The notes below the pieces were generated by a model. The model searched no databases, was not told the origin of the DNA, and was given only the letters and a program-made list of their open reading frames with translations. The translations under genes were made by a program, and so were the position numbers. A stretch of DNA of 64,000 nt. It comes from Thauera sp. (GTDB lineage Bacteria; Pseudomonadota; Gammaproteobacteria; Burkholderiales; Rhodocyclaceae). The stretch lies in contig JACKMB010000005.1 in the NCBI GenBank assembly GCA_024235615.1, positions 62,001-126,000 on the forward strand, read 5' to 3'. How positions within the stretch are numbered: the first letter of the stretch is position 1; each line of letters begins with the position of its first letter. Shown here piece by piece: positions 20,854 through 33,992 of the stretch.

Positions 20854-21345
20854 TCATCGAGGCGGGTCGGTGGCACGCAAGCGCCGCCTGACCGCGCGCA
20901 TCAGCCCCCCGAGCAGCGGCAGCTTCTCGTACAGTTCCTCGGCGGCGTCCCAGTAGTCGCGGTGCAGCGTCACCCGGTCGTCGGCGTCGAAGCGCAGGTG
21001 CGTGACGCCGCGCACCGTCAGCGCGCGCCCGCGCAGCGCGAAGTGGAACGTCCAGCCCAGCATGGCCTGCCCGCCCTGCTCGATGCAGTCGGTGACCTCG
21101 AAGCGCGGCGCCTCGGTGGTGGCGAACATGTGCTCGAAGATGCGGCGGATGGCGGCGGTGCCGGCGACCTCGTTGAAGGGGTCCTTGAAGCGGGCGTCGG
21201 GGGCGTAGAACTGGTCGAGGCCGTCCAGCGCGGCGGGGGTGAGCGTCTCGTAGAAGCACGCCAGGCGCAGGGCGGGCGATTGCCGCACGGGCTCCGGCGT
21301 CGAGGCGGCTGCTGGCAGGGGCTCCGGAAGCTTCGGGTCGGTCAT
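20854..21345 (-). CDS. SnoaL/NTF2-like protein (last gene of the FolE2-lipid operon)
   Basis: A 163-aa protein of the NTF2-like fold: CFYETLTPAALDGLDQFYAP and ARFKDPFNEVAGTAAIRRIFEHMF, then IEQGGQAMLGWTFHFALRGR. Members with this KDPFNEV motif are typically encoded beside the SDR, DUF3833 and CFA-like genes, as here, and may handle a lipid intermediate. The gap to the SDR gene is 10 bp. No catalytic role can be read from the sequence. Confidence 0.82.
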   Translation of the reverse strand: MTDPKLPEPLPAAASTPEPVRQSPALRLACFYETLTPAALDGLDQFYAPDARFKDPFNEVAGTAAIRRIFEHMFATTEAPRFEVTDCIEQGGQAMLGWTFHFALRGRALTVRGVTHLRFDADDRVTLHRDYWDAAEELYEKLPLLGGLMRAVRRRLRATDPPR

Positions 21346-21355
21346 GGCGGCAAGC

Positions 21356-22270
21356 CTACACGCCGGTGGCGCGGCGGATCAGCGCGAAATAGAAGCGGCG
21401 CGGCAGCAACTGCAGGAACTTCAGCACGCGCGTGAAGCGCTTCGGGAAGTGGATCTCGAAGTCGCCGCGCGCAAAGCCGTCGACGATCGCATCGGCCGCC
21501 TGCGCCGGAGTCTGCAGCGCGGGCATGGCGAAGTCGTTCTGCGCGGTGAGCGGGGTGGCGACGAAGCCGGGATCGATCAGGAACACGCCGATGCCGCGCG
21601 GCGACAGGTCGAGGTGGAGGACTTCGGCGAAGTTGATCAGCGCCGCCTTGGAGGGGCCGTACACGGTCGCCTTGGGCAGCCCGCCGTAGCCGGCGACGCT
21701 GCCCACCAGGGCGATCGCGCCCTCGCCTTGCGCGAGCAGGGTCGGCAGGACCGCCGCGGTGGCGCTCATGGTGCCGACGAGGTTGGTCTCCAGGGTCTCG
21801 CGCACGGCCTGCGCGCTCAGCTCCCAGGCACGCAGCGGGCGATAGGTGCCGGCGTTGAAGACGACGAGGTCGATGCCGCCCCAGGCTGCGAGCAGCTGGT
21901 CGCGCGCGCGCTCGAGCTCGTCCGTGCGGGAGAGGTCGAGCGCCAGCGCGCGCGCGGCAGCGGGCGAATCGGCGCGGCGCGCGGGCTCGACGGCCGCGTT
22001 CGCGGGCGAGCCCGCGTTCCCGGTGGCCGGCGCGGCGCCGCCGACCGGACCGGCGCCGGCGGCCGCATCGCAGGCCGCGCACACCGCCTCGAGGCGTTCC
22101 CGTCCGCGCGCGGACAGCGCCAGGCACGCGCCGCGACGCGCGAGCTCGAGCGCGAGCGCCTCGCCGATGCCAGACGACGCGCCCACGATCCACACCCGCC
22201 GCCCCGCCCACTCGCGGATCGGCGTGTTCAGCGGCGCGAACCAGCCGCGGCGGGCGGCAGGCGCGGTCAC
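21356..22270 (-). CDS. short-chain dehydrogenase/reductase
   Basis: A 304-aa NAD(P)-dependent oxidoreductase. The cofactor motif GASSGIGEALALELARRG, the NAG motif VFNAGTYRPLR, the catalytic Ser in ALVGSVAGYGGLP and the YxxxK in YGPSKAALINFAEVL are all present. The GTG start at 22270 overlaps the DUF3833 stop (GTGA). An Ala/Pro-rich insert (residues about 70-100) is unusual. Part of a translationally coupled operon; the substrate is probably a lipid-linked carbonyl or alcohol, by context. Confidence 0.9.
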   Translation of the reverse strand: MTAPAARRGWFAPLNTPIREWAGRRVWIVGASSGIGEALALELARRGACLALSARGRERLEAVCAACDAAAGAGPVGGAAPATGNAGSPANAAVEPARRADSPAAARALALDLSRTDELERARDQLLAAWGGIDLVVFNAGTYRPLRAWELSAQAVRETLETNLVGTMSATAAVLPTLLAQGEGAIALVGSVAGYGGLPKATVYGPSKAALINFAEVLHLDLSPRGIGVFLIDPGFVATPLTAQNDFAMPALQTPAQAADAIVDGFARGDFEIHFPKRFTRVLKFLQLLPRRFYFALIRRATGV

Positions 22271-22800
22271 GGACGCGCCCTCTTGTGGAAGGACAGCGTG
22301 ACCTCGCCGAGGCGAAAGCCCCACTTGCTCATCAGCGAGCGGTTGAGCATGACCTGGTCGTCCATCAGGAACATCCAGTCGTCGAAGTCGACGTTGTAGA
22401 CCTTGCCATCCACCGGCAGCGCCAGCACGTAGCGCCAGCGCAGCGCATTGCCGGCCGCCTCGCCGGTTGCCTCGCCGACCACGTCGTCGGCACGGCCGCT
22501 GTAGCGCCCCGGCCCGAGCCGCGTGATGGTCCACACCCGACGCTGGGTCGTGCCGTCGGAGTAGGTGAAATGCTCGTCGAGCGTGCCGGTGTCGCCCTGC
22601 CAGCGCGCGTCGATGAGCACGTGGAAGCGCTTGACCACCTTGCCCGAGCGATCCTGGAACATGCCCCAGGCGTCGATCGTGCCGTCGAAGTAGTCGCGCA
22701 GCTCGAGCACGGGCGTCTCGGCACGGTAATCATCGATGTTCACGCTGCTGCACCCCCAGAGCCCCAGCAGGGCAACGCACATCAGGAAAAAACGTTTCAC
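22267..22800 (-). CDS. DUF3833 lipoprotein
   Basis: A 177-aa protein with signal peptide and lipobox (MKRFFLMCVALLGLWGCSSV), Cys being the lipid-anchored residue. The mature domain (LELRDYFDGTIDAWGMFQDR, GTLDEHFTYSDGTTQRRVWT, MLNRSLMSKWGFRLGEVTLS) is the DUF3833 signature. The GTG start overlaps the MFS stop. The family is regularly linked to CFA-like and DUF1365 genes and is thought to act in envelope lipid modification, though its biochemistry is unknown. Confidence 0.9.
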   Translation of the reverse strand: MKRFFLMCVALLGLWGCSSVNIDDYRAETPVLELRDYFDGTIDAWGMFQDRSGKVVKRFHVLIDARWQGDTGTLDEHFTYSDGTTQRRVWTITRLGPGRYSGRADDVVGEATGEAAGNALRWRYVLALPVDGKVYNVDFDDWMFLMDDQVMLNRSLMSKWGFRLGEVTLSFHKRARP

Positions 22801-24386
22801 GATTGCTCTCCACGAAGATCCTTCCCTCCCACGCCTCCTGGGACCGGACTCGCCCGCCACCCTCCCGGCTCGATCGCATCCCGCCAGCGCCACAGCAGCG
22901 CGATCGCCGCGAGCTTGAGCGCGACCGGCACGAAGCCGTACACCGCCGCGAGCGCGCCGACTGCCGCGGCCTCGCGCGCGCCCGGCGTATAGCCGAGCAG
23001 CGCGAGCAGCGGCAGGGCGAGGCCGGCGGCGAGCGCCAGGTTGGCCTTGGTGACGAAGCTCCACCAGCCGAAGCAGGCGCCCGCCTCGAGCGTGGGCGCA
23101 CAGGCCGCTCCGTCGTGCATGCGCGCGTCACCCGTCATGCCGATCGGGGCCACGGCCTCCAAGTGCCGAGAGGGCGCCCGCTCGCGCCCACGCGCGAGCA
23201 GGTCGGCGAGCAGCGAGGGCGGCAGGGTGAGGTCGGCGCCCAGCGCCAGGCCCGAGAGCACGCAGATGCAGGCGTAGGCGACCAGGTCGCCGCTGCCGAG
23301 CAGGCCTGCCCAGGCGAACACCGCCACCGCCAGCGCCATGCTGCCGAGCCAGGCGCGCAGCTTGCCGATGCGCTGCGACAGCCGCGTCCAAACGGGCAGA
23401 CCCGCCGCTGCGGCGACAAAGTAGAGCGCGAGGAAGGCGCCGGCGAGCGCCTCGGCCTGCAGCACGTCGGCGACGAAGAAGAGCACCGTGGCCGAAGGGA
23501 TCGCCGCGGCGATGCCGTTGGCCGCGAACACCGCGAGCAGGCGGGCGAAGCCGGCGTCGCCGAGCGCCGCGCGCAGGCCCCGCCACAGCGCAGCGCGCAC
23601 CGGCGCGAGCGGCGGCGGCGCCGGCGCGCGCCACAGCGTCCACAGGCCGAAGACCACGAGCAGCGGCAGGAAAGCCCAGGCGAGCCGCGCCAGCCCGGCC
23701 GCGCCGCCATCGCTCACGCTGGCCGGGGCGCCATCGGCCGGCTGCGCGGAAACCTCCGCCTCGCGGACCACCCCGGCTCCAGCGCCAGCCCCCTCTCCCC
23801 CCATCCCAGCGTCACCGAGCAGCCCCGGCAGCGCCGCCGCCAGCACCACGCCGGCGAGCGCGAAGGCCTCGCGGCTGGCGACGAAGCGGGTGCGCGCCGC
23901 CGGCGTGGCGGCCACCTCGGCGCCCCAGGCGTTGTAGGCGATGCTCGCCACCGAGTAGGCCAGCGACACCGCCACCAGCAGGCCGAACAGCCACGCCGCC
24001 CCGCTCCCCGCGGGCGGGACCAGCAGGCCGAGCATGCCGGCGCCGAGCGCGGGCAGCGCCAGCGCGATCCACAGCCGGCGCCGCGGCAGGCGGTCGTTGG
24101 CCCAGCCGATGAGCGGATCGGTCACCGCATCCACGATGCGCGCGGCGAGCAGGACCGCGCCCACAAGCGCGAGCGAAAGGCCCAGGCCCTCGGCGTACAG
24201 GCGCGGCACGTGCACGTAGATCGGCAGCGCCGCAAAGGCCAGCGGCAATCCGAGCGCGCCGTAGGCGATCAGATCGCCGCGCTCGCCGCAGCCGCGATCG
24301 CGACCGATGCCGGATGCGCCGGGCGTGCCAGCGCTCGCGTCGCCAGCGGCGCAGCCGTCCGGTACGACGCGCGCGCCCTCGGTCAT
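22797..24386 (-). CDS. MFS transporter, GPH/MelB-like
   Basis: A 529-aa integral membrane protein with about 12 predicted helices. The GPH/MelB loop signature is DAVTDPLIGWANDRLPRRR. A long hydrophilic insert separates helices 6 and 7 (GEGAGAGAGVVREAEVSAQP region). The N-terminal 35 residues are polar. ATGA overlap with the chalcone-isomerase-like gene upstream. In this gene cluster the MFS protein may move a lipid or sterol-like molecule; substrate unknown. Confidence 0.88.
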   Translation of the reverse strand: MTEGARVVPDGCAAGDASAGTPGASGIGRDRGCGERGDLIAYGALGLPLAFAALPIYVHVPRLYAEGLGLSLALVGAVLLAARIVDAVTDPLIGWANDRLPRRRLWIALALPALGAGMLGLLVPPAGSGAAWLFGLLVAVSLAYSVASIAYNAWGAEVAATPAARTRFVASREAFALAGVVLAAALPGLLGDAGMGGEGAGAGAGVVREAEVSAQPADGAPASVSDGGAAGLARLAWAFLPLLVVFGLWTLWRAPAPPPLAPVRAALWRGLRAALGDAGFARLLAVFAANGIAAAIPSATVLFFVADVLQAEALAGAFLALYFVAAAAGLPVWTRLSQRIGKLRAWLGSMALAVAVFAWAGLLGSGDLVAYACICVLSGLALGADLTLPPSLLADLLARGRERAPSRHLEAVAPIGMTGDARMHDGAACAPTLEAGACFGWWSFVTKANLALAAGLALPLLALLGYTPGAREAAAVGALAAVYGFVPVALKLAAIALLWRWRDAIEPGGWRASPVPGGVGGKDLRGEQS

Positions 24387-25015
24387 CTCGCCCCGTCCGC
24401 CAACCCGAGCAGGCGCGCCCGCAGGGCGGGCTCGCGCGTGCGCTCGTCGAGCCAGATCGCGAAGAAGGCCTGCGCCAGGGCCGGGTCGTCGAGCTCGGCG
24501 GTGGGGCGTCCGTCGTGCCAGAAGGCTGCGCCCCGGCCGGGGCGGTGCAGGCCGGTGAGGGTGTCGCCGGCGGCGACCGCAGGCAGCGCCGCGGCGAGCG
24601 CCCCGGCCCAGCGCGCCAGCGTCGGCTCGTCAGCGAGGCCGAGGCGGCGCATCTCGTCGAGGCTGAGCTCGACCAGGCGCTCGGAGGTGACCGCGCGCGC
24701 ATAGCGGATGGAGAGCACGTACTCGTCGTCCATCGCCTGCGCGCCCGGTGCACGCGCCCACAACGCGGCGTCGTAGAGCTTGAAGCCGAGCCAGCGCAGC
24801 TCGCCGCGGCCGATCTCGCGCAGCCCGGCCTCGCTCGCCGCGAGCTGCGGCGGCAGGCCAAGCGCGTGCACCGTCTCCATGGCGAGCAGCATGCAGCAGG
24901 CGAGCACGACGCCGAGTTCGCGCGCCTTGCGGGCGCGCGACGCGCGGACGAGCCGGCTCAGGCCGCGCCTCAGGCGTTGCGGGGCGCGCGCGGGAAAGCG
25001 GGTCGGTGCGTTCAT
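24383..25015 (-). CDS. chalcone-isomerase-like protein
   Basis: A 210-aa protein with an N-terminal hydrophobic signal or anchor (ELGVVLACCMLLAMETVHAL) and the bacterial chalcone-isomerase-like domain: GRGELRWLGFKLYDAALWA, SIRYARAVTSERLVELSLDEMRRLG and GRGAAFWHDGRPTAELDDPALAQAFFAIWL. Bacterial members are periplasmic and bind fatty acids or unknown ligands rather than flavonoids. It is separated from the CFA-like gene by 68 bp, the largest gap in the operon, and a DUF2878 gene often found there is absent. Confidence 0.87.
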   Translation of the reverse strand: MNAPTRFPARAPQRLRRGLSRLVRASRARKARELGVVLACCMLLAMETVHALGLPPQLAASEAGLREIGRGELRWLGFKLYDAALWARAPGAQAMDDEYVLSIRYARAVTSERLVELSLDEMRRLGLADEPTLARWAGALAAALPAVAAGDTLTGLHRPGRGAAFWHDGRPTAELDDPALAQAFFAIWLDERTREPALRARLLGLADGAR

Positions 25016-25083: not shown

Positions 25084-26325
25084 TCAGCCGGCTCGCGAGG
25101 CCGCCCCGGCATGCGCGAACACATAGTGGTGCACGTCGATGTCGCCGGTGTCGAAGCCCGCCTCGCAGTACGCAAGATAAAAACGCCACATGCGCAGGAA
25201 GCGCTCGGGGAAGCCCTGGGCGCGCACCGCCGCCGCCTGCGCGTCGAAGCTGCGGTGCCAGTGCGCCAGCGTGCGCGCGTAGTCGCGCCCGAAGGCGAAG
25301 TCGCCCACCACCTCGAGCCCGGCGCGCCCGGCCTGCTGCGCGACCGCGCCCGGGCTGGGCAGCATGCCGCCGGGGAAGACGTGGCGCTGGATGAAGTCGG
25401 TGCCGCGGCGGTAGCGTGCGAACAGCGCGTCGGCGATCGTGATCGCCTGCACCACGCAGCGCCCGCCCGGTTTCAGCAAGCCCGAGAGCTGGGCGAAGTA
25501 GGTCGGCCAGAAGCGCTCGCCCACCGCCTCGATCATCTCGATGGAGACGATGTGGTCGTACTGGCCGCGAACGTCGCGGTAGTCGCACAGCTCGAAGTCC
25601 ACCCGGTCGGCAAAGCCGCCGCGCTCGGCGCGCGCGCGCGCGAAATCGAGCTGCGAGGGCGACAGGGTGATGCCGAGCACCTTGCAGCCGAACTCGGTGG
25701 CGGCCACCTCGGCGAAGCCGCCCCAGCCGCAGCCGACCTCCAGGATGGTCTGCCCCGGCTGCACGCCGAGCTCGCCGAGGATGCGGCGGTACTTGCGCAG
25801 CTGGGCGTGCGCCAGCGACTCGTCCGGCGAGGCGAACACCGCCGCCGAGTAGGTCATGGTGGGGTCGAGCCAGAGGGCGTAGAAGTCGTTGCCGAGGTCG
25901 TAGTGGGCCTCGATGTTGCGCCGCGAGCCGCTGCGCGTGTTGGCGCGCAGCAGGTGCTGCAGGCGGTGGCTCAGCAGCCGGAACATGCGCCCGTAGATCG
26001 CACCCTGCAGGCGGGCGCGGTTGGCCGAGAGCAGGCGCAGCAGCCCGGGGAGGTCCTCGGTGTCCCACAGGCCGTCCATCCAGGTCTCGCCGAAGCCGAT
26101 GTCGCCGCGCGCGAGCGCCTCGTCGAAGACGGCGTGGTCGCGCACGCGCAGGTGGGCGACGAGCGGGCCATGGCCGGCACGCACGCGCACGCCATCAGGC
26201 AGTTCCACCGCGATCGCACCGCCGTCGAGGCGGTCGAGCATCTCCAGGCACAGCCGGGTGGCGCGCGGCAGGCGCGCGAGGCGCAGGCCGGCGAGCGGCT
26301 GCAGGGCATGGTCGAGCGCGTTCAT
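25084..26325 (-). CDS. cyclopropane-fatty-acyl-phospholipid synthase-like methyltransferase (UfaM-like by context)
   Basis: A 413-aa SAM-dependent methyltransferase acting on unsaturated phospholipid acyl chains. The SAM site is LEVGCGWGGFAEVAATEFG; other marks are AHYDLGNDFYALWLDPTMTYSAA, HIVSIEMIEAVGERFWPTYF and HVFPGGMLPSP. Beside DUF1365 and an FAD oxidoreductase, it resembles the alphaproteobacterial methylase of furan fatty acid synthesis rather than plain CFA synthase; that is inference from neighbourhood. Start MNALDHALQ overlaps the DUF1365 stop by one base. Confidence 0.92.
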   Translation of the reverse strand: MNALDHALQPLAGLRLARLPRATRLCLEMLDRLDGGAIAVELPDGVRVRAGHGPLVAHLRVRDHAVFDEALARGDIGFGETWMDGLWDTEDLPGLLRLLSANRARLQGAIYGRMFRLLSHRLQHLLRANTRSGSRRNIEAHYDLGNDFYALWLDPTMTYSAAVFASPDESLAHAQLRKYRRILGELGVQPGQTILEVGCGWGGFAEVAATEFGCKVLGITLSPSQLDFARARAERGGFADRVDFELCDYRDVRGQYDHIVSIEMIEAVGERFWPTYFAQLSGLLKPGGRCVVQAITIADALFARYRRGTDFIQRHVFPGGMLPSPGAVAQQAGRAGLEVVGDFAFGRDYARTLAHWHRSFDAQAAAVRAQGFPERFLRMWRFYLAYCEAGFDTGDIDVHHYVFAHAGAASRAG

Positions 26326-27095
26326 CAGGTGGTCTCCTCGATCGGCGGCGCGGGCTTGCGGAAGAAGCTCACCCGCCGCAGGGCCAGGCGCAGCGCCTGC
26401 CAGTGGATGCGGGCGATGACGCCCAGGGTCATGAAGGGCTGGCGGGCGAGCCATTTCCCCATGCTGGCGCCGCTGACCGCTTCGGCACGGCCCGACAGGC
26501 GGGTGGACAGCTGGCGCTCGCCGCCGTCCCAGAGCTCGATCGACACCGCATGCACCGCGCCGCGCTGCTCGAAGCGGAAGCGGTACTCGCCGCGCACCGG
26601 GAAGAAGGGCGAGACGTGGAAGCGCTTGCTGGCGCGCAGCTCGTCGCCCGCGACGATGGGGCGCAGGTCATCGTGGTGCAGCAGGTAGTTGTGGCGTTCG
26701 CCGAAGGTGTTGTTCACCTCGGCCAGCACCGCGCGCAGGTTGCCCGTGCAGTCGTGGCAGAACCAGAAGCTGACCGGGTTGAAGACGAAGCCGAGGATGC
26801 GCGGCATGGTCTGCAGCACGACCTCGCCGTCGCACGCCGCGGCCAGCCCGCGCTCGTCCAGGAGAGCGCGGATCCACGGCAATAGGGGCGAGCCGTCGCG
26901 CGCGCCGTGATCGCGGCTGCGGAAGCTGATGAGGTTGGCACGCTCGATGCCGAGCAGCGGTGCGCGTACCCGATCCAGCCGGCCGAGCGGCAGGCGCAGG
27001 AAGGCGCTCGGGTAGACGAAGCGGTTGTGCGCCTGCACATGGCGCTCGTGCATGACCGCGCCGAAGCACACGGCAGGTTGCAGCGCGTCGGACAT
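26325..27095 (-). CDS. DUF1365 family protein
   Basis: A 256-aa cytoplasmic protein with the DUF1365 marks CFGAVMHERHVQAHNRFVYP, PRILGFVFNPVSFWFCHD, VLAEVNNTFGERHNYLL and RFHVSPFFPVRGEYRFRF. It always neighbours the FAD oxidoreductase and CFA-like gene in this cluster type and is thought to help make furan or modified fatty acids. Starts and stops overlap both neighbours by one base (TGATG), indicating translational coupling. Confidence 0.94.
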   Translation of the reverse strand: MSDALQPAVCFGAVMHERHVQAHNRFVYPSAFLRLPLGRLDRVRAPLLGIERANLISFRSRDHGARDGSPLLPWIRALLDERGLAAACDGEVVLQTMPRILGFVFNPVSFWFCHDCTGNLRAVLAEVNNTFGERHNYLLHHDDLRPIVAGDELRASKRFHVSPFFPVRGEYRFRFEQRGAVHAVSIELWDGGERQLSTRLSGRAEAVSGASMGKWLARQPFMTLGVIARIHWQALRLALRRVSFFRKPAPPIEETT

Positions 27096-28456
27096 CACGC
27101 CGCCTCCAACGCCATCGCGGCAGGCACGCGGCCGCGCCGCCACGGCACCTCCACGCCCATGGCCTCGACCACCGCGACCGCGGACTTGAGGCCGTCCTCG
27201 TGGAAGCCGTAGCCGGTCCATGCCCCGGCGAACCAGCAGCGCTCGCGGCCCTGGATGGCGGGCAGCGCGGCCTGGGCGTCGATCGCGCCGTGGTCGAACA
27301 CTGGGTGGGCGTACTCGATGCGGCGGAAGGTCTTGTCGGCCGCGGGTTCGGTGAAGGGGTTCAGCGATACCACCACCGGGGTCTGGAAAGGCAGGGGCTG
27401 CAGGCGGTTGATGAGATAGCTCACCGACACCGGGCGCGCGTCGGGCGCGCCCTTGCCGGCGAGGTAGTTCCACGCCGACCACACCTTTTGCCGGCGCGGC
27501 AGCAGGGCGGTGTCGGTGTGCAGCCAGGCGACGTTGGCCTGGTACTGCACCGCGCCGAGGACGCGGCGCTCTTCCGCCGTGGCCTCGCTGCCGAGGATGG
27601 CGAGGGCCTGGTCGCTGTGGCAGGCGAAGACGAGTTCGTCGAAGCGCTCCGCCCCGCCTGCGGTATGCACCCACACCCCGTCCTCGCCGCGCACCACGCG
27701 CTGCACCGGCGAATTCACCCGCACGTCGTCGAGACGGGCGAGCATGCGGCGCACGTAGCTGCGCCCGCCACCCTTCACCGTCATCCAGGTCGGACGGTCG
27801 AGGATCTGCAGCAGGCCGTGGTTGTGGCAGAACTGCACGAAGGTGGCGAGCGGGTAGGCCAGCATGGTGCTCGTCGGGCAGGACCAGATCGCCGCAGCCA
27901 TGGGCAGCAGGTACCAGTCGCGGAAGGCCTGCGAATAGTCCTCGAGGTCGAGGTACTCGCCGAGCGACAGGGCCGGCATGGCACCCTCGTGCGCCATGCG
28001 CGTGGTCTCGCGGTTGAAGCGCAGGATGTCGCGCAGCATGGCAAGGAAGGCCGGGCGGACCAGGTTGCCACGCTGGGCGAATACGCTGGCGAGGTCGGTG
28101 CCGGCCCATTCGAGCTCGGGCTCGGCGAGGCTGACGCCGAAGCTCATCTCGGTCTCGACCGCCTCGACCTGCAGCAAGGCGAACAGCGCGCACAGGTTGG
28201 GATAGGTGCGGCGGTTGAAGACCAGGAAGCCGGTGTCGACCGGATGGGTGAGGCCGTCGACCGTGACGTCGATGGTGTTGGTGTGGCCACCGACGTAGCT
28301 GCCCGCCTCGAACAGCGTCACGCGGTGCTGCGGCGCGAGCAGCCACGCGGTCGAGAGGCCGGCGATGCCGCCGCCGATCACCGCGATGCGCCGCCCCTGG
28401 CTGCCCTGGCCCGCCTCGCCTGCGGCGTGCAGGCGCTCGATCTCACCCATCTTCAT
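27095..28456 (-). CDS. FAD-dependent oxidoreductase, amine-oxidase/desaturase-like (UfaD-like by context)
   Basis: A 453-aa flavoprotein. The FAD motif is RRIAVIGGGIAGLSTAWLLA, followed by VTLFEAGSYVGGHTNTIDVT and GFLVFNRRTYPNL; the C-terminal FAD contact is CWFAGAWTGYGFHEDGLKSA. The start at 28456 has GGAG eight bases upstream; an internal ATG two codons later is possible. In Rhodobacter a similar protein introduces the double bond in furan fatty acid synthesis; transfer of that function is inference. Confidence 0.92.
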   Translation of the reverse strand: MKMGEIERLHAAGEAGQGSQGRRIAVIGGGIAGLSTAWLLAPQHRVTLFEAGSYVGGHTNTIDVTVDGLTHPVDTGFLVFNRRTYPNLCALFALLQVEAVETEMSFGVSLAEPELEWAGTDLASVFAQRGNLVRPAFLAMLRDILRFNRETTRMAHEGAMPALSLGEYLDLEDYSQAFRDWYLLPMAAAIWSCPTSTMLAYPLATFVQFCHNHGLLQILDRPTWMTVKGGGRSYVRRMLARLDDVRVNSPVQRVVRGEDGVWVHTAGGAERFDELVFACHSDQALAILGSEATAEERRVLGAVQYQANVAWLHTDTALLPRRQKVWSAWNYLAGKGAPDARPVSVSYLINRLQPLPFQTPVVVSLNPFTEPAADKTFRRIEYAHPVFDHGAIDAQAALPAIQGRERCWFAGAWTGYGFHEDGLKSAVAVVEAMGVEVPWRRGRVPAAMALEAA

Positions 28457-28461
28457 GGCAC

Positions 28462-29268
28462 TTACTCCGGCGCGTTCTCGCCCTCGATGAGGGCGTAGGC
28501 GGAATGGTTGTGGATGGACTCGAAGTTCTCCGACTGCACCCGCCACGAAGCCACGCGCGCATCGGCGCGCAGGCGCAGCGCGATGTCGCGCACGAGGTCC
28601 TCGACGAACTTGGGGTTGTCGTAGGCGCGCTCGGTGACCCACTTCTCGTCCGGGCGCTTGAGCAGGCCGAAGACCTCGCACGAGGCTTCTTCTTCAGCCA
28701 TGCGCACCAGCTCGCGCAGGCCGAGGTCGCCGCGCAGCGTGGCGCTCAGGGTGATGTGCGAGCGCTGGTTGTGGGCGCCGTAGGCGGAGATCTTCTTCGA
28801 GCACGGGCACAGGCTGGTGACCGGCACCACCGCCTCGAGCGTGCTGCGGATCTCGCCGCCCTCCGCCTTCTCCACCACCACGCGGGCGTCGATGTCGAGC
28901 AGGCTCTCGACGCCCGAGACCGGCGCGGCCTTCTTCATGAACCAGGGGAAGCGCGCCTCGATGCGACCGCTGCTGGCCTCGAGGCGCAGCAGCATGTCGG
29001 CGAAGAGGCCGCGCAAGCCGTCGAGGTCGAGCGCATCGCGCTCGGCTTCGAGGAGCTCGACGAAGCGCGACATGTGCGTACCCTTGACGTCCGCGGGCAG
29101 GCCGACGGTCATCTCCAGCGTGGCGACGGTGTGCTGCACGCCGCCGTCGAGGTCGCGCACCGCGATCGGGTAGCGCAGGCCGCGCACTCCGACCTGCTGG
29201 ATCGCCAGCGCGCGGTGGTCGGCGCTGGATTGCACGTCGGGCAGGAAGAACTTTTCCGGGGCGTTCAT
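28462..29268 (-). CDS. folE2: GTP cyclohydrolase I type 2
   Basis: A metal-flexible GTP cyclohydrolase, first step of tetrahydrofolate and pterin synthesis. The 268-aa protein carries the active-site Cys in [20 protein letters not shown], followed by [13 protein letters not shown] and [20 protein letters not shown], and the N-terminal [14 protein letters not shown]. FolE2 homologues often appear in LitR-regulated, light-induced sets, perhaps to feed photolyase or oxidative-stress repair. The start overlaps the stop of the small exported protein (ATGA). Confidence 0.96.
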
Positions 29269-29519
29269 GAGTGATCCTTTTGCTTGCTGGGGAGGGGACG
29301 CAGCGGGAGGTCCGCGCGATGGACGAAGAGCAGGAGTTCGAGCGGGGTCTGTGCCTGGGTCACAGGCCCCTTGTCTACGACGAGCCTTTCAGGAGCGCCG
29401 GCCGCTACCGCCGCGACGACCTGGGGCTGGGCGGCCGTGGCCGCGGAAATCCCGAAGGAGACGAGCGCCGCCGCGGCGAAGAGCATGCCGGCGCGCCTGG
29501 AGAGCGTATTCGCATTCAT
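29265..29519 (-). CDS. small exported protein, first gene of the FolE2-lipid operon
   Basis: An 84-aa product with signal peptide [20 protein letters not shown] ending SAATAAQP, then a short mature part ([39 protein letters not shown]). No family recognised. The ATG at 29519 lies right after a TGTCC-N-GGACA palindrome and 35 bases from the -10 of the operon promoter, so it is the first reading frame of the transcript. Because it overlaps folE2, it may act as a translational leader. Confidence 0.65.
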
Positions 29520-29524
29520 GGCCG

Positions 29525-29535
29525 TGTCCTGGACA
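29525..29535. promoter_or_regulatory. TGTCC-T-GGACA palindrome downstream of operon promoter
   Basis: The 11-bp core of the same palindrome found at 29586 and 31516, lying between the operon -10 and the first ATG. It could be a second operator. Confidence 0.55.
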
Positions 29536-29553
29536 AGCGTTGATGACGATCCC

Positions 29554-29582
29554 ACGATAGGCCAGCCCCGAGGACCTGTCAA
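29554..29582 (-). promoter_or_regulatory. sigma-70 promoter of the FolE2-lipid operon
   Basis: Minus strand TTGACA (complement of 29577-29582), 17 bases, TATCGT (complement of 29554-29559). It is bracketed by the palindromes at 29586-29600 and 29525-29535. Confidence 0.75.
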
Positions 29583-29585
29583 GGA

Positions 29586-29600
29586 TTTGTCCAGGACAAA
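29586..29600. promoter_or_regulatory. LitR-operator candidate TTTGTCC-A-GGACAAA
   Basis: A 15-bp inverted repeat with 7-bp arms, just upstream of the -35 of the operon promoter. An identical-arm copy (centre T) overlaps the litR -35. Position suits regulation of both the operon and the divergent Na/Pi gene. Confidence 0.75.
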
Positions 29601-29722
29601 ATAAAATTTCAGCGCCCCGCAGAAATTGCCCCGGCATCCTCCGAGAACAATGCACTCCCCGCCGCGGCGATCCGGCATTACGCTTTCCCTAAGACCCCCC
29701 CATCCCGCACGAGAGGCCCGCC

Positions 29723-31396
29723 CTGGACACCAGCTCGCTCGCCATCTACCCGATCGTCGCCGGCCTGCTCGGCGGCATCGGCCTGTTCCTGCTCGGCATG
29801 CACATGCTCACCGAGGGCCTCAAGCTCGCCGCCGGCCGCGCGCTCGAGGGCCTGCTCGAGCGCGGCACCGCCACGCCCGTGCGCGGCCTGGGCGCCGGCA
29901 TGACCATGACCGCGCTGGTGCAGTCCTCCACCGCGGTCACGGTGGCGAGCATCGGCTTCGTCAACACCGGGCTGCTGTCGCTGCAGAACGCGATGTGGGT
30001 GATCTTCGGCTCCAACGTGGGCACCACGCTCAACGCCTGGCTGGTCGCGGCGCTCGGCTTCAGCTTCAGGATCGACGCCTTCGCCCTGCCCTTCGTCGGC
30101 ATCGGCGCCACCCTGATGCTGGCCGGACGCACGGTCCGCCAGCGCGCGCTCGGCCAGGCTCTGGCGGGCTTTGGCGTGCTCTTCCTCGGCATCGACGCGC
30201 TCAAGGACACCTTCTCGGGCTTCGGCGCGGCGATGAACCTGCAGGACCACATCGCGCCCGGCCTCGCCGGCTGGCTGATCCTGGTCGGCATCGGCACCCT
30301 GCTGACCGTGCTGATGCAGGCTTCGGGCGCGGTGATCGCGATCATCATCACCGCCGCGCAGGGCGGGCTGATGTCGATCGAGGCGGCGTGCGCGATGGTG
30401 ATCGGCACCAACATCGGCACGACCTCGACGGCGATCCTTTCGGCGCTCGGCGCGACCTCGAACGCGCGCCGGCTGGCAGCGACCCACGTGATCTTCAACC
30501 TGGTGACCGGCGCGGTGGCGATCGCCCTGCTGCCGCTGCTGATCAGCCTGCTCGGTGCGCTGCGCAACTGGTTCGAGCAGCCGGCCACGCCGGCGGTGAT
30601 GCTGGCGATGTTCCACACCGCCTTCAACCTGCTCGGGGTGCTGCTGATGGTGCCGCTGGCGCGGCCGCTGCGGCGCTATCTGGCGGGCCACTTCCGCAGC
30701 CGCGAGGAAGAGATCGCCCGCCCGCGCTACCTGGACGCGCCTTCGCTGGCGGTGCCCGACCTGGCGCTGCGCACCCTGCGCCTGGAGCTGGGCCGCACGC
30801 AATCCTTCGCGCTGACCGCACTGACCGCAGCCACCCGGGTGCCGCCCGACGAGCCCTGGATCGAGCGCCAGGCGAGCGCGCTCGATGCGCTCGCGCCGGC
30901 GATCGGCGACTACGTGCGCAAGCTCAACGCCATGCGCCTGCCGCCAGCGCTGGTCGAGGCGGTGGCGCACAGCCTGCGCGCGCTGCAGTACCAGGAGAGC
31001 GCGGTGACCGCGGTGCGCCAGGCCTGCGCGCTGGCCACCACGCTCGGCGCGCCGCCGGGCGCCGAACTGGAGCCGGTCGCCGCGGCCTTCCGCCAGGCGA
31101 CCGGGGCGCTGGCCGCGAGCGCGGACGCGGCGCGCGAGGATTTCTCGGTGGCGCCGGTCGAGGTCAGGCTGGAAGAGGCGGAACTGCGCTACCAGGCCTT
31201 CAAGGAGGCGCTGCTGCTGGAAGGCGCACACGCCCGCATCGACATCCGCACCATGCAGGACTGGCTGCGCCTGGCCAGCCTGGAGCGGCGCGCGATCGAG
31301 CAGGTGGCCAAGGCGGCGCGCATGCTGGCCGTGCTGGACGGCGACCTGACGCCGCAGCAGGCGGCGGAGAAGGCGGGAGAAAACGGGGTGGAGTGA
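29723..31396 (+). CDS. Na/Pi cotransporter family protein with PhoU-like C-terminus
   Basis: A 557-aa membrane transporter of the NptA/YjbB family. Two inverted PhoU-like transporter repeats are visible: TALVQSSTAVTVASIGFVNTG with VIFGSNVGTTLNAW, and TVLMQASGAVIAIIITAAQGG with VIGTNIGTTSTAIL; QSS and QASG are the substrate-site motifs. The C-terminal 200 residues are soluble and helical, PhoU-like. Start: CTG at 29723 preceded by GAGAGG and six bases gives the full family N-terminus (LDTSSLAIYPIVAGLLGGIG); there is no ATG or GTG upstream before an in-frame TAA, and ATG at 29798 would lose the first helix. Confidence 0.85.
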   Translation: MDTSSLAIYPIVAGLLGGIGLFLLGMHMLTEGLKLAAGRALEGLLERGTATPVRGLGAGMTMTALVQSSTAVTVASIGFVNTGLLSLQNAMWVIFGSNVGTTLNAWLVAALGFSFRIDAFALPFVGIGATLMLAGRTVRQRALGQALAGFGVLFLGIDALKDTFSGFGAAMNLQDHIAPGLAGWLILVGIGTLLTVLMQASGAVIAIIITAAQGGLMSIEAACAMVIGTNIGTTSTAILSALGATSNARRLAATHVIFNLVTGAVAIALLPLLISLLGALRNWFEQPATPAVMLAMFHTAFNLLGVLLMVPLARPLRRYLAGHFRSREEEIARPRYLDAPSLAVPDLALRTLRLELGRTQSFALTALTAATRVPPDEPWIERQASALDALAPAIGDYVRKLNAMRLPPALVEAVAHSLRALQYQESAVTAVRQACALATTLGAPPGAELEPVAAAFRQATGALAASADAAREDFSVAPVEVRLEEAELRYQAFKEALLLEGAHARIDIRTMQDWLRLASLERRAIEQVAKAARMLAVLDGDLTPQQAAEKAGENGVE

Positions 31397-31515
31397 GCGC
31401 GGAGGCGGAGTCATGTGCTACCGGGTGGAGTGCTGGTCGGACGGAAGCGTGGGCGCGTGCGATCCGGCTGCCCCGACCTCGCACGTCACAGGCTGGAAAG
31501 CGGCTTCCAGACACG

Positions 31516-31530
31516 TTTGTCCTGGACAAA
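31516..31530. promoter_or_regulatory. LitR-operator candidate TTTGTCC-T-GGACAAA at litR promoter
   Basis: A perfect inverted repeat overlapping a -35-like TGGACA (31523-31528), 17 bases before TAACAT (31546-31551). It fits autoregulation of litR. The same palindrome lies at 29586. Confidence 0.75.
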
Positions 31531-31585
31531 TCAAACTCCCCCGCCTAACATCCACTCATCGACCACCACCCGAAAGCAGCTGCCG

Positions 31586-32509
31586 ATGAACGCGCCGAAC
31601 CTGTCCGAGACCGCCTTCAGCATCGCCGCCGTCGAACGCGACACGGGCCTCGCGAAGGACACCCTGAGGGTGTGGGAGCGGCGCTACGGCTTCCCTTCGC
31701 CGACGCGCGACGCCAACGGCGAGCGCCTCTATCCGGCGGATCAGGTCGAGAAGCTGCGCATGATCCGCCGCCTGCTCGACCACGGCCGACGGCCGGCGCG
31801 GGTCGTGGGGGCGAGCATCGAGGAACTCTCCGCGATGCTGGATGCCTGCCTGTGCCCGGAGGGCGGCGCGCCAGCCGGTCGCGACGACGGCCTGCTGCAG
31901 CTCGTGCGCCTGCATCGCAGCGTGGAGCTCGCCGCGGCGCTGCGCCAGGCGCTGATGAAGCAGGGCCTGCAGCGCTTCGTCGCCGAGACCGTGGCGCCGC
32001 TCGCGGCGGCGGTGGGCGAGGCGTGGATGCGCGGCGAGGTCGATGTGCCGGAGGAGCACCTGTTCACCGAGCAGGTGCAGAACGTGCTTCGCAGCGCCAT
32101 CGGTGCGCATGCGGCGAGCGCTGGACGGCCGCGCGTGCTGTTGACGACCTTCCCCGAGGAGGAGCACGTGCTCGGCCTGCTGATGGCCGAGGCGATGCTG
32201 GTGCCCGAGGGCGCGAGCTGCCTGTCGCTGGGCACGCGCACCCCGCTCGCGGACATCCGCAGCGCGGCGGTGGGTGGGGGCTTCGACATCGTCGGGCTGT
32301 CCTTCAGCATCGCCTACCCGGCGCGCCAGGCGATCGAGGGGCTGCTCGAGCTGCGCTCGCTGCTGCCCGAGGGGATCGAGCTGTGGGCCGGGGGCGCCGC
32401 CGTCCGCGACAAGCAGAAGCGGCTGCCGGGCATTCGTGTGGTCGGGGATCTGGAGGACACCATGGCGGCCCTGCAGGAGTGGCGCGCGCGCAACGGCGCG
32501 GAGGGCTGA
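31586..32509 (+). CDS. litR: LitR/CarH-type MerR regulator with B12-binding photosensor domain
   Basis: A 307-aa regulator. The N-terminal MerR HTH is FSIAAVERDTGLAKDTLRVW and RRYGFPSPTRDANGERLYPA. A helical bundle follows with the Wx9EH motif (W147, E157, H158), whose His is the upper axial ligand to adenosylcobalamin in CarH. The B12 Rossmann domain has TTFPEEEHVLGLLMAEAML (His194, lower ligand position) and IVGLSFSIAYPARQ ... LWAGGAAV. In CarH/LitR, light breaks the Co-C bond and releases DNA. It likely controls the operon starting at 29519, which shares its palindrome. CarH's DxH is ExH here. Confidence 0.92.
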   Translation: MNAPNLSETAFSIAAVERDTGLAKDTLRVWERRYGFPSPTRDANGERLYPADQVEKLRMIRRLLDHGRRPARVVGASIEELSAMLDACLCPEGGAPAGRDDGLLQLVRLHRSVELAAALRQALMKQGLQRFVAETVAPLAAAVGEAWMRGEVDVPEEHLFTEQVQNVLRSAIGAHAASAGRPRVLLTTFPEEEHVLGLLMAEAMLVPEGASCLSLGTRTPLADIRSAAVGGGFDIVGLSFSIAYPARQAIEGLLELRSLLPEGIELWAGGAAVRDKQKRLPGIRVVGDLEDTMAALQEWRARNGAEG

Positions 32510-32535: not shown

Positions 32536-33992
32536 TTTGTGTAGGAGCGGCGGCAGCCGCGAATGGGGCCGGGTCGACGACCACGGCACAGCGAGGGTTC
32601 CACCCGCCGCGTTCGCGCCTGCCGGCGCTCCTACATGAAACGCCGCGCCTCCTGCACGAACCACCGCGTCTCCGCCCCCTGTAGGAGCGGCGGCAGCCGC
32701 GATTGGGCTGGGTCGACGACCGCGGCGCGGACCCGCCATCGCCGCCGCCGAAGCCTGCCGCGCGCTCCTACGCGAACCGCCGCGCCTCCTGCACGGCCCA
32801 CCGCGTCTCTGCCCCCTGTAGGAGCGGCGGCCGCAGAACGGGGGTCGACGACCGCGGCGCCGCGAGGACCCCGCCCGCCGCGTTCGCCCTGCCGCGCCTG
32901 CCGCGCTCCTACCCCGCCCGCCGCGCCTGCCGCTGCGCACGAAACCGCCGCGCCGCCGCCCGCCGGTCGACGACCGCGCGCTGCAGCGCCCCCGCATGAG
33001 CGGCGGCAGCCGCGAACCGCGTCTCCGGGTGGGCGCGACGCCGCGGCGACCGCGGCGCAGCGAGGACCCGCCCGCCGCGTTCGCGCCTGCCGGCGCTCCT
33101 ACATGAACCGCCGCGCCTCCTGAACGAACCACCGCGTCTCCGCCCCCTGTAGGAGCGGCGGCAGCCGCGAATGGGCTGGGTCGACGACCGCGGCGCCGCG
33201 AGGACCCGACCGCCGCGTTCGCGCCTGCCGGCGCTCCTACATGAACCGCCGCGCCTCCTGCACGAACCGCGCCGTCTCCGCCCCCTGTAGGAGCGGCGGC
33301 AGCCGCGAATGGGCTGGGTCGACGACCGCGGCGCCGCGAGGACCCGCCCGCCGTCGTTCGCGCCTGCCGGCGCTCCTACATGAACCGCCGCGCCTCCTGC
33401 ACGAACCACCGCGTCTCCGCCCCCTGTAGGAGCGGCGGCAGCCGCGAATCCGCCCCAGGAGCGTCGACGCCGCGGCGCCGCGCGAGCGCCGCGCCCGCCG
33501 CGCCCGTCTTCGCCCGCTGCCGGCGCTCCTACATGAACCGCCGCGCCTCCTGAACGAACCACCGCGCCTCCGCCCCCTGTAGGAGCGGCGGCAGCCGCGA
33601 ATGGGCTGGGTCGACGACCGCGGCGCCGCGAGGACCCGACCGCCGTCTTCGCGCCTGCCGGCGCTCCTACATGAACCGCCGCGCCTCCTGAACGAACCAC
33701 CGCGTCTCCGCCCCCTGTAGGAGCGGCGGCAGTCGACGACCGCGCAACCCGCCCGCCGCGTTCGCGCCTGCCGGCGCTCCTACATGAACCGCCGCGTCTC
33801 CTGAACGAACCACCGCGTCTCCGCCCCCTGTAGGAGCGGCGGCAGCCGCGAATGGGCTGGGTCGACGACCGCGGCGCAGCGAGACCCCGCCCGCCGCGTT
33901 CGCGCCTGCCGGCGCTCCTACATGAACCGCCGCCTCCTGAACGAACCACCGCGTCTCCGCCCCCTGTAGGAGCGGCGGCAGCCGCGAATCCG
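32536..33992. repeat. REP/REPIN array 1
   Basis: About 1.45 kb of alternating REPs between litR and recQ. Roughly ten forward class-A copies (GTAGGAGCGGCGGCAGCCGC) alternate with about eight inverted class-B copies (complement of GTAGGAGCGCCGGCAGGCGC). The unit is about 138 bp and its spacers are conserved too (TGGGCTGGGTCGACGACCGC, GAACCGCCGCGCCTCCTG, CCACCGCGTCTCCGCCCCCT). Some units are shortened (near 33720) or rearranged (32880-33050). Open frames running through it are repetitive and not genes. Confidence 0.93.

Follow-up and report, generated by a model that had tools for sequence, protein, structure and literature searches.

Light-responsive regulators of the LitR/CarH family have been described in two forms that bear on the locus studied here; the papers cited below by PMC number are drawn on in part. 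Class I proteins, known from Thermus thermophilus, Bacillus megaterium and Myxococcus xanthus, combine a MerR DNA-binding domain with two B12 domains, and CarH contacts its direct-repeat operators through the consensus nAnnTnnACAn in an 11-bp register (PMC8156234). In T. thermophilus CarH, the adenosylcobalamin (AdoCbl) and light residues are W131, E141, H142 and H177 (PMC11796333). The closest system is that of the class II LitR repressors of Pseudomonas (PplR1-3 in P. putida, PmlR1/2 in P. mendocina), and in P. mendocina phrB and ufaM are light-induced 25-33-fold (PMC9758184). We analyzed 64,000 nucleotides of Thauera sp. DNA (GenBank assembly GCA_024235615.1, contig JACKMB010000005.1, positions 62,001 to 126,000 of the forward strand; hereafter the window), in which a litR gene and an operon of folE2 and lipid-modification genes share the palindrome TTTGTCC-N-GGACAAA. 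We consider it highly likely that a class I-type, AdoCbl-dependent LitR uses this palindrome as its operator; this LitR would repress a photo-stress regulon until released by light.

The 15-mer is present in two exact copies in the window, one upstream of the folE2/lipid operon (centre A on the plus strand) and one upstream of litR (centre T). A third, degenerate copy lies 63 bp from the first of these; its 11-bp core at 29525-29535 is exact, and it has 3 mismatches over 15 bp. Judged from the window alone, the excess is only suggestive: 4 of 100 shuffled sequences also gave three matches at up to 3 mismatches. A promoter scan of positions 29200-31700 on both strands returned just two promoter-like sites (shuffle mean 0.0), TTGACA-N17-TATCGT on the minus strand and TGGACA-N17-TAACAT on the plus strand. 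Along the minus strand, the palindrome is followed by 3 bp, TTGACA, 17 bp, TATCGT, about 16 bp, the second palindrome and the first ATG. Read directly, the -35 element of this promoter sits 11 bp on from the TnnACA half-site of the palindrome, and the copy upstream of litR overlaps the -35 element of the litR promoter. An earlier sequence-only reading of this stretch had pointed out both 15-mers, the third core and the two promoters with these placements, and every one of them was recovered as it had described. Neither TGTACA nor TATACA, the halves of the class II operator T(G/A)TACA-N12-TGTACA, was found at window positions 29500-29640 or 31490-31590. In loci L073-L075, too, an exact site precedes litR, with its centre 63 bp from the start of the gene.

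Across the source genome (4,012,043 bp in 14 contigs), we found four exact copies of the 15-mer, where 0.0019 would be expected for sequence of the window's base composition, and none with exactly one mismatch. One of the two copies outside the window lies between a DUF3429 gene and a gene for a flavin adenine dinucleotide (FAD)-dependent oxidoreductase; after the latter come a photolyase/cryptochrome gene and a further photolyase-like open reading frame (ORF). The other is a few bases before the ATG of the photolyase gene phrB, beside a divergent gene which we take to be yqgE. Thus, the four copies adjoin the folE2/lipid operon, litR, phrB and an FAD-oxidoreductase/photolyase cluster. The sequence-only reading had suggested looking for photolyase genes at further copies, and the two extra sites are where it predicted; its claim also withstood the comparison with chance frequency that it had named as a possible refutation. 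A photolyase-like ORF of the source genome (L011:12014-13621, C4) has an insertion that keeps the reading frame and encodes two copies of the GTAGGAGCGGCG repeat. This repeat unit is also found ten times downstream of litR, at window positions 32541-33966, mostly in 113-153-bp steps.

In a set of 199 genomes of the family, with LitR counted as present at E <= 1e-20, 80 genomes encode LitR. The exact palindrome occurs in 44 of these 80 and in none of the 119 genomes that lack LitR (Fisher p 2e-22), and the reversed pattern occurs in 4 of the 199. The same holds within genera: among the 16 that have members with and without LitR and at least one site, 29 of 35 LitR-positive genomes carry an exact site, as opposed to 0 of 35 LitR-negative ones. 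Two of the six genomes of the window's own genus lack both LitR and the UfaD-like gene and yet keep phrB. No site, even at up to 4 mismatches, was found in the roughly 240 bp upstream of phrB in these two, and an exact site stands just before phrB in all four LitR-positive genomes of the genus.

By our tally, 43 of the 69 exact sites in the family are within 350 bp upstream of a litR start or overlap it. The remaining 26 adjoin the lipid operon (5), photolyase genes (6), a DUF3429 gene (1), FAD oxidoreductase genes with or without a photolyase (7, one of them by a fragment match only), methyl-accepting chemotaxis genes (3), genes for a PAS-LytTR regulator (2), hemB (1) and a gene of the DinB_2/FGE-sulfatase type (1).

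We then asked where sites lie relative to litR, scanning from -400 to +40 in family genes with at least 150 bp upstream (n = 82) and in a named collection (n = 79); L105 and L222, in which no LitR start was matched, and L218, which has no upstream sequence, were left out. In the family set, 33 upstream regions have an exact site, 71 a site at up to 1 mismatch and 78 at up to 2, and the reversed pattern gives 0, 0 and 1. The corresponding numbers for the named collection are 23, 45 and 67. A motif-free search of 162 litR upstream regions agrees with this: the commonest exact 6-mer inverted repeat is TTTGTC-N3-GACAAA, found in 96 of them (the best in shuffled sequences was 1). For 67 of the named loci, 3 kb or more of upstream sequence was available. 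In 55 of these, the reference gene matched closest upstream of litR lies on the opposite strand and is either folE2 (34 loci) or the UfaD-like gene (21); genes outside our reference set may intervene. In the window, L078 and L079, a gene for a Na/Pi cotransporter does so. Locus L181 (G188:C178) has litR twice in tandem, at a distance of about 3 kb, and both copies have a site pair of their own (spaced 58 and 62 bp).

The sites are often paired. Pairs 62-64 or 73-75 bp apart occur in 63 of the 82 family and 30 of the 79 named litR upstream regions, and the reversed control gives 0 in both. Pooled without deduplication, 94 pairs are spaced 40-100 bp, of which 61 fall at 62-64 bp and 27 at 73-75 bp. 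The two locus sets overlap in genomes, so we recounted the pairs on distinct sequences with slightly looser limits; this gave 61 operators of a 63-bp class and 26 of a 74-bp class, counts that are still inflated by shared ancestry. The paired palindromes enclose the promoter of the divergent operon, which is of the sigma-70 type and strongly conserved (TTGACA, 17 bp, TATCTT); folE2 in the window has this arrangement too.

In the 63-bp class, the centre base in litR orientation is T in the first palindrome in 60 of 61 operators and A in the second in 46 of 61, with the result that the better TnnACA halves face inward, towards the promoter. In 30 of these 61 operators, the step from the TnnACA half-site to TTGACA is 11 bp, and in 7 it is 12 bp. 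In the 74-bp class, the step is 22 bp in 15 of 26 operators, 23 bp in 4 and 21 bp in 1, and 10 of the 26 have an extra TnnACA at +11, against a background of about 0.02 per position. We read the two classes as differing by one repeat, that is, one helical turn. The 11-bp step and the TnnACA core agree with the register and with part of the CarH contact consensus (PMC8156234), and the palindrome can be read as two back-to-back CarH half-sites. The A of that consensus was not found in the operators, in which the main conserved element is the palindrome.

The LitR protein itself has an N-terminal MerR DNA-binding domain (Pfam MerR_1, E 9.7e-14), a four-helix-bundle B12-binding_2 domain over its cut-off (PF02607, E 1.2e-7) and a Rossmann-type B12-binding domain (PF02310, E 4.1e-7) whose 30.3 bits are just under the curated 32.1. 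Its best relatives in the PDB are Thermus LitR (3whp) and CarH (5c8d), at E of about 2e-31, and its nearest named relatives are from Thauera phenylacetica (96%) and T. aminoaromatica (94%). The best match of the AlphaFold2 model (mean predicted local distance difference test 88) is likewise CarH (Foldseek E 3.7e-19). Against the CarH cobalamin-domain structures, the template-modelling score of the model reaches 0.84 at the domain level and about 0.5 for the whole chain, probably as its domains are placed differently. The counterparts of the four CarH residues are W147, E157, H158 and H194, all of which are kept in 164 of 164 aligned relatives; the Wx9EH motif and the lower-ligand histidine thus stand at the positions that the sequence-only reading had assigned to them. 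The hallmark of class II, absence of the C-terminal B12-binding domain, does not apply to this protein, which has the domain and its ligand residues. On the NCBI CarH equivalog model NF052513, it scores 140.1 bits (E 8.2e-41), below the cut-off of 400, and we file it by motif as a class I-type member of the LitR/CarH family rather than as a CarH equivalog. The source genome also has a gene for a cobalamin adenosyltransferase of the BtuR/CobA family.

The link between palindrome and LitR has its exceptions, and the following points weigh against it. At up to 3 mismatches, the source genome has 28 forward matches and 35 to the reversed control. Therefore only near-exact copies are informative, and other genomic sites with 2-3 mismatches were not taken as additional targets. 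In the family, 36 of the 80 LitR-positive genomes have no exact copy, and 7 of the 26 exact sites away from litR adjoin genes outside the core set. No site was found even at 2 mismatches upstream of litR in 4 of the 82 family regions (three of them with a LitR of 35-44% identity) and 12 of the 79 named ones. Order-wide, the exact word occurs in 11 of 129 genomes with LitR and 4 of 270 without it, and its reversed control in 7 of 399. This link is weak because the site drifts, for example to TTTGTCTAGGGCAAA in Polynucleobacter and TTTGTCCTGTACAAA in Moraxellaceae, and the exact word is not supported as an order-wide LitR code. Additionally, the published CarH operators, as presented in the parts of PMC8156234 used here, are direct repeats, not palindromes.

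Part of this would suit an origin of the palindromes as chance words or functionless repeats, namely the modest excess in the window (4 of 100 shuffles reach 3 matches) and the 28 matches against 35 at up to 3 mismatches. The comparative data have already refuted this explanation: four exact copies, where 0.002 are expected, lie at related genes, co-occurrence with LitR in the family is strict, and position and spacing are conserved in dozens of genomes. We rejected a chance origin on the co-occurrence and position data and regard it as practically negligible. Tight palindromes are also common for dimeric repressors of other families, and a different factor co-inherited with litR could bind the palindrome and control litR together with the photo-stress genes. 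We think this very improbable, as 78 of the 82 family litR genes have the site upstream at up to 2 mismatches, often in a region shared with the divergent operon, exact sites are confined to the LitR-positive members within the 16 genera, and the TnnACA half-site with its 11-bp step to the -35 element partly fits the CarH contact consensus. The palindrome is thus very probably a real operator.

Alternatively, LitR may bind these sites without being an AdoCbl light sensor and respond to another signal, such as oxidative stress, the B12 status by itself or, as in Pseudomonas, a LOV partner. The class II LitR of Pseudomonas is B12-independent and switched by a LOV protein (PMC9758184), and the Thauera protein scores 140 bits where the CarH equivalog cut-off is 400 and 30.3 bits where that of the B12-binding family is 32.1. 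We still judge this unlikely: the four AdoCbl/light residues of CarH are kept in all 164 relatives, class II proteins have no recognizable C-terminal B12 domain according to the parts of PMC9758184 used here, and the main targets are photo-stress genes. In Thauera and its relatives, control of a light-response set of DNA repair, membrane-lipid and cofactor genes by a B12-type sensor is very probable in our view; it would carry an established type of bacterial light switch over to a DNA code and an arrangement that are new.

The distribution of the sites, their linkage to LitR, their layout and overlap with promoters and the conserved sensor residues were observed directly. The earlier proposal that the palindrome is the LitR operator is supported by the site distribution and by the family-wide co-occurrence (44 of 80 genomes with LitR, none of 119 without); binding by LitR, its oligomer state, the sign of repression and the light response we infer from CarH and Pseudomonas LitR. 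In the dark, AdoCbl-bound LitR would sit on palindromes that flank or overlap core promoters and block RNA polymerase. It would cover the -35 element and, at the lipid operon, where two 15-mers spaced by six helical turns enclose the promoter, both promoter flanks. Light would cut the Co-C bond, LitR would leave the DNA, and the folE2/furan-lipid operon, litR, phrB and the FAD-oxidoreductase/photolyase cluster would be switched on jointly, as a regulon for defence against photo-oxidation. On the analogy of CarH, the dark co-repressor would be AdoCbl, with light or B12 shortage relieving repression. The sequence-only reading had B12 turning the genes on, which has the wrong sign by the same analogy, and we rejected B12 as an activator.

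The paired sites allow a more specific model, which we put forward tentatively and with some doubt. A dark AdoCbl-LitR tetramer might hold palindromes 63 or 74 bp apart, that is, six or seven turns, and loop or wrap the promoter between them, with back-to-back CarH half-sites and an 11-bp step into the -35 element. Such a clamp in Betaproteobacteria would mean that one photon-sensitive tetramer shuts a promoter from both ends.

The genes of the lipid operon follow one another as in Table 1, from the leader ORF to the SnoaL-like gene. They are probably co-transcribed, to judge by their spacing and conserved order. The suggestion of a modified (furan) fatty acid pathway holds at the family level, given the UfaD-like FAD enzyme, the DUF1365 protein and the CMAS-type methylase. 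ORFs at the leader position in L081, L084, L086, L095 and L102 have a common C-terminal motif of the LFLHR/LLLYH type. Several relatives have a third palindrome within the leader ORF, where it reads xVQDx; its distance from the operator pair is often about 160 bp. Leader ORFs of this type were recognized in only 11 of 162 upstream regions, 7 of which use GTC-CAG-GAC, and either selection on the operator or selection on the protein may conserve this third copy.

Table 1. Features of the litR and folE2/lipid loci, in window coordinates; operon genes are listed from first to last
Feature	Positions	Strand	Basis or remark
Exact palindrome, upstream member of the folE2 operator pair	29586..29600	.	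3 bp upstream of the minus-strand -35
Degenerate second palindrome	29523..29537	.	between -10 and first ATG; 63 bp from the first
Sigma-70-type promoter, folE2/lipid operon	29554..29582	-	TTGACA-N17-TATCGT; same layout in relatives
Exact palindrome over the litR -35 (putative autoregulation)	31516..31530	.	sequence match and promoter scan
litR promoter	31523..31551	+	TGGACA-N17-TAACAT, promoter scan
litR, 307 aa: MerR DNA-binding domain, B12-binding_2, B12-binding	31586..32509	+	Pfam, PDB search, alignment, Foldseek
84-aa leader ORF, signal-peptide-like start, LxLFxHR-type motif, no Pfam family	29265..29519	-	
folE2 (GTP cyclohydrolase I type FolE2)	28462..29268	-	family match
UfaD-like FAD-dependent enzyme	27095..28456	-	Amino_oxidase, NAD_binding_8
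DUF1365 protein (UfaO family)	26325..27095	-	Pfam; UfaO domain per PMC7380195
CMAS-type S-adenosylmethionine fatty-acid methylase (UfaM/Cfa type)	25084..26325	-	start inferred
Chalcone_3 protein	24383..25015	-	Pfam
MFS_2 transporter	22797..24386	-	Pfam
DUF3833 lipoprotein-like protein	22267..22803	-	Pfam; start uncertain
Short-chain dehydrogenase	21356..22280	-	Pfam; start uncertain
SnoaL-like protein	20854..21345	-	last operon gene kept in many relatives (47/67 loci)

Some exact sites elsewhere in the family adjoin genes of other kinds. In L166 (G152), hemB (porphobilinogen synthase) has the palindrome 92 bp upstream of its ORF, and tetrapyrrole synthesis would in this way be tied to the light switch. 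L169 (G180), L172 (G092) and L156 (G139) have exact palindromes beside methyl-accepting chemotaxis genes; one of the three has a PAS domain and a second near-exact site, and in L156 an esterase gene is equally close. Light control of taxis is possible at these loci. In L170 (G091) and L049 (G033), which belong to one genus, the palindrome stands between the gene for a PAS-LytTR regulator, identified by Pfam in L170 and by similarity to the ORFs of L170 in L049, and a divergent membrane-protein-like gene. In L055 (G188), it is just upstream of a gene for a DinB_2/FGE-sulfatase-type enzyme. This architecture is presumably that of ergothioneine/ovothiol-type synthases, and a role for the gene in photo-oxidant defence is plausible.

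If the proposed operator is confirmed, B12-based light sensing would have a DNA code that can be read across a large bacterial group around Thauera, and light regulons would become legible from genomes. Confirmation would also mean that a programme of photolyase, folate/pterin and furan-lipid genes, which is under LOV-switched class II LitR in Pseudomonas and, in its lipid part, under ChrR in Rhodobacter, is wired here to a B12-type sensor. The paired palindromes offer a testable model of how direct repeats and palindromes could serve a single photoreceptor family in different species.

ChrR is part of a singlet-oxygen-responsive anti-sigma system. The furan-fatty-acid genes that it controls in Rhodobacter sphaeroides (ufaM, RSP1091-1087) resemble the Thauera operon in their UfaD-type FAD enzyme, DUF1365 (UfaO) protein and UfaM, and loss of ChrR raises furan lipids (PMC7380195), whereas in Thauera a repressor of the light-sensor type lies beside the operon. 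From gene order, the MFS, DUF3833 and short-chain dehydrogenase genes probably correspond to RSP1089-1087.

In the literature searched, to which Sumi 2018 (class III LitR) and Sumi 2020 (P. putida LitR) did not belong, we found no description of the TTTGTCC-N-GGACAAA code, of pairing at 63/74 bp, of phased palindrome pairs under a B12-type LitR, or of this gene set under a B12-intact LitR in Betaproteobacteria. The LitR-controlled gene set is already known from Pseudomonas, where it is under class II, LOV-switched LitR and TGTACA-type sites. As in Thauera, the regulators there belong to the LitR family. Light-inducible genes of Pseudomonas include phrB, ufaM, folE, cryB and a gene for LitR itself, and the same cluster holds an FAD oxidoreductase and a short-chain dehydrogenase. 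Two sites around one core promoter are likewise known, for the LOV-switched PmlR2 of P. mendocina; the footprint runs from about -54 to +37, with one site on the -35 element and the other between the start site and the ATG. The systems differ in that the Pseudomonas operator is T(G/A)TACA-N12-TGTACA, its LitR has no usable B12 domain in the account used here, while that of Thauera keeps the B12 light-sensing residues, and folE2 heads the lipid operon in Thauera, unlike the class II regulon (PMC9758184). The Thauera protein resembles class I LitR/CarH in its domains, Wx9EH motif, lower-ligand histidine and predicted fold, and the TnnACA core of its sites and the 11-bp step in part of the operators recall those of class I. 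The CarH operators described, however, consist of three or four 11-bp direct repeats and serve carotenoid genes, whereas the palindromes of Thauera are back-to-back, often paired at 63/74 bp, and lie at DNA repair, pterin and lipid genes (PMC8156234).

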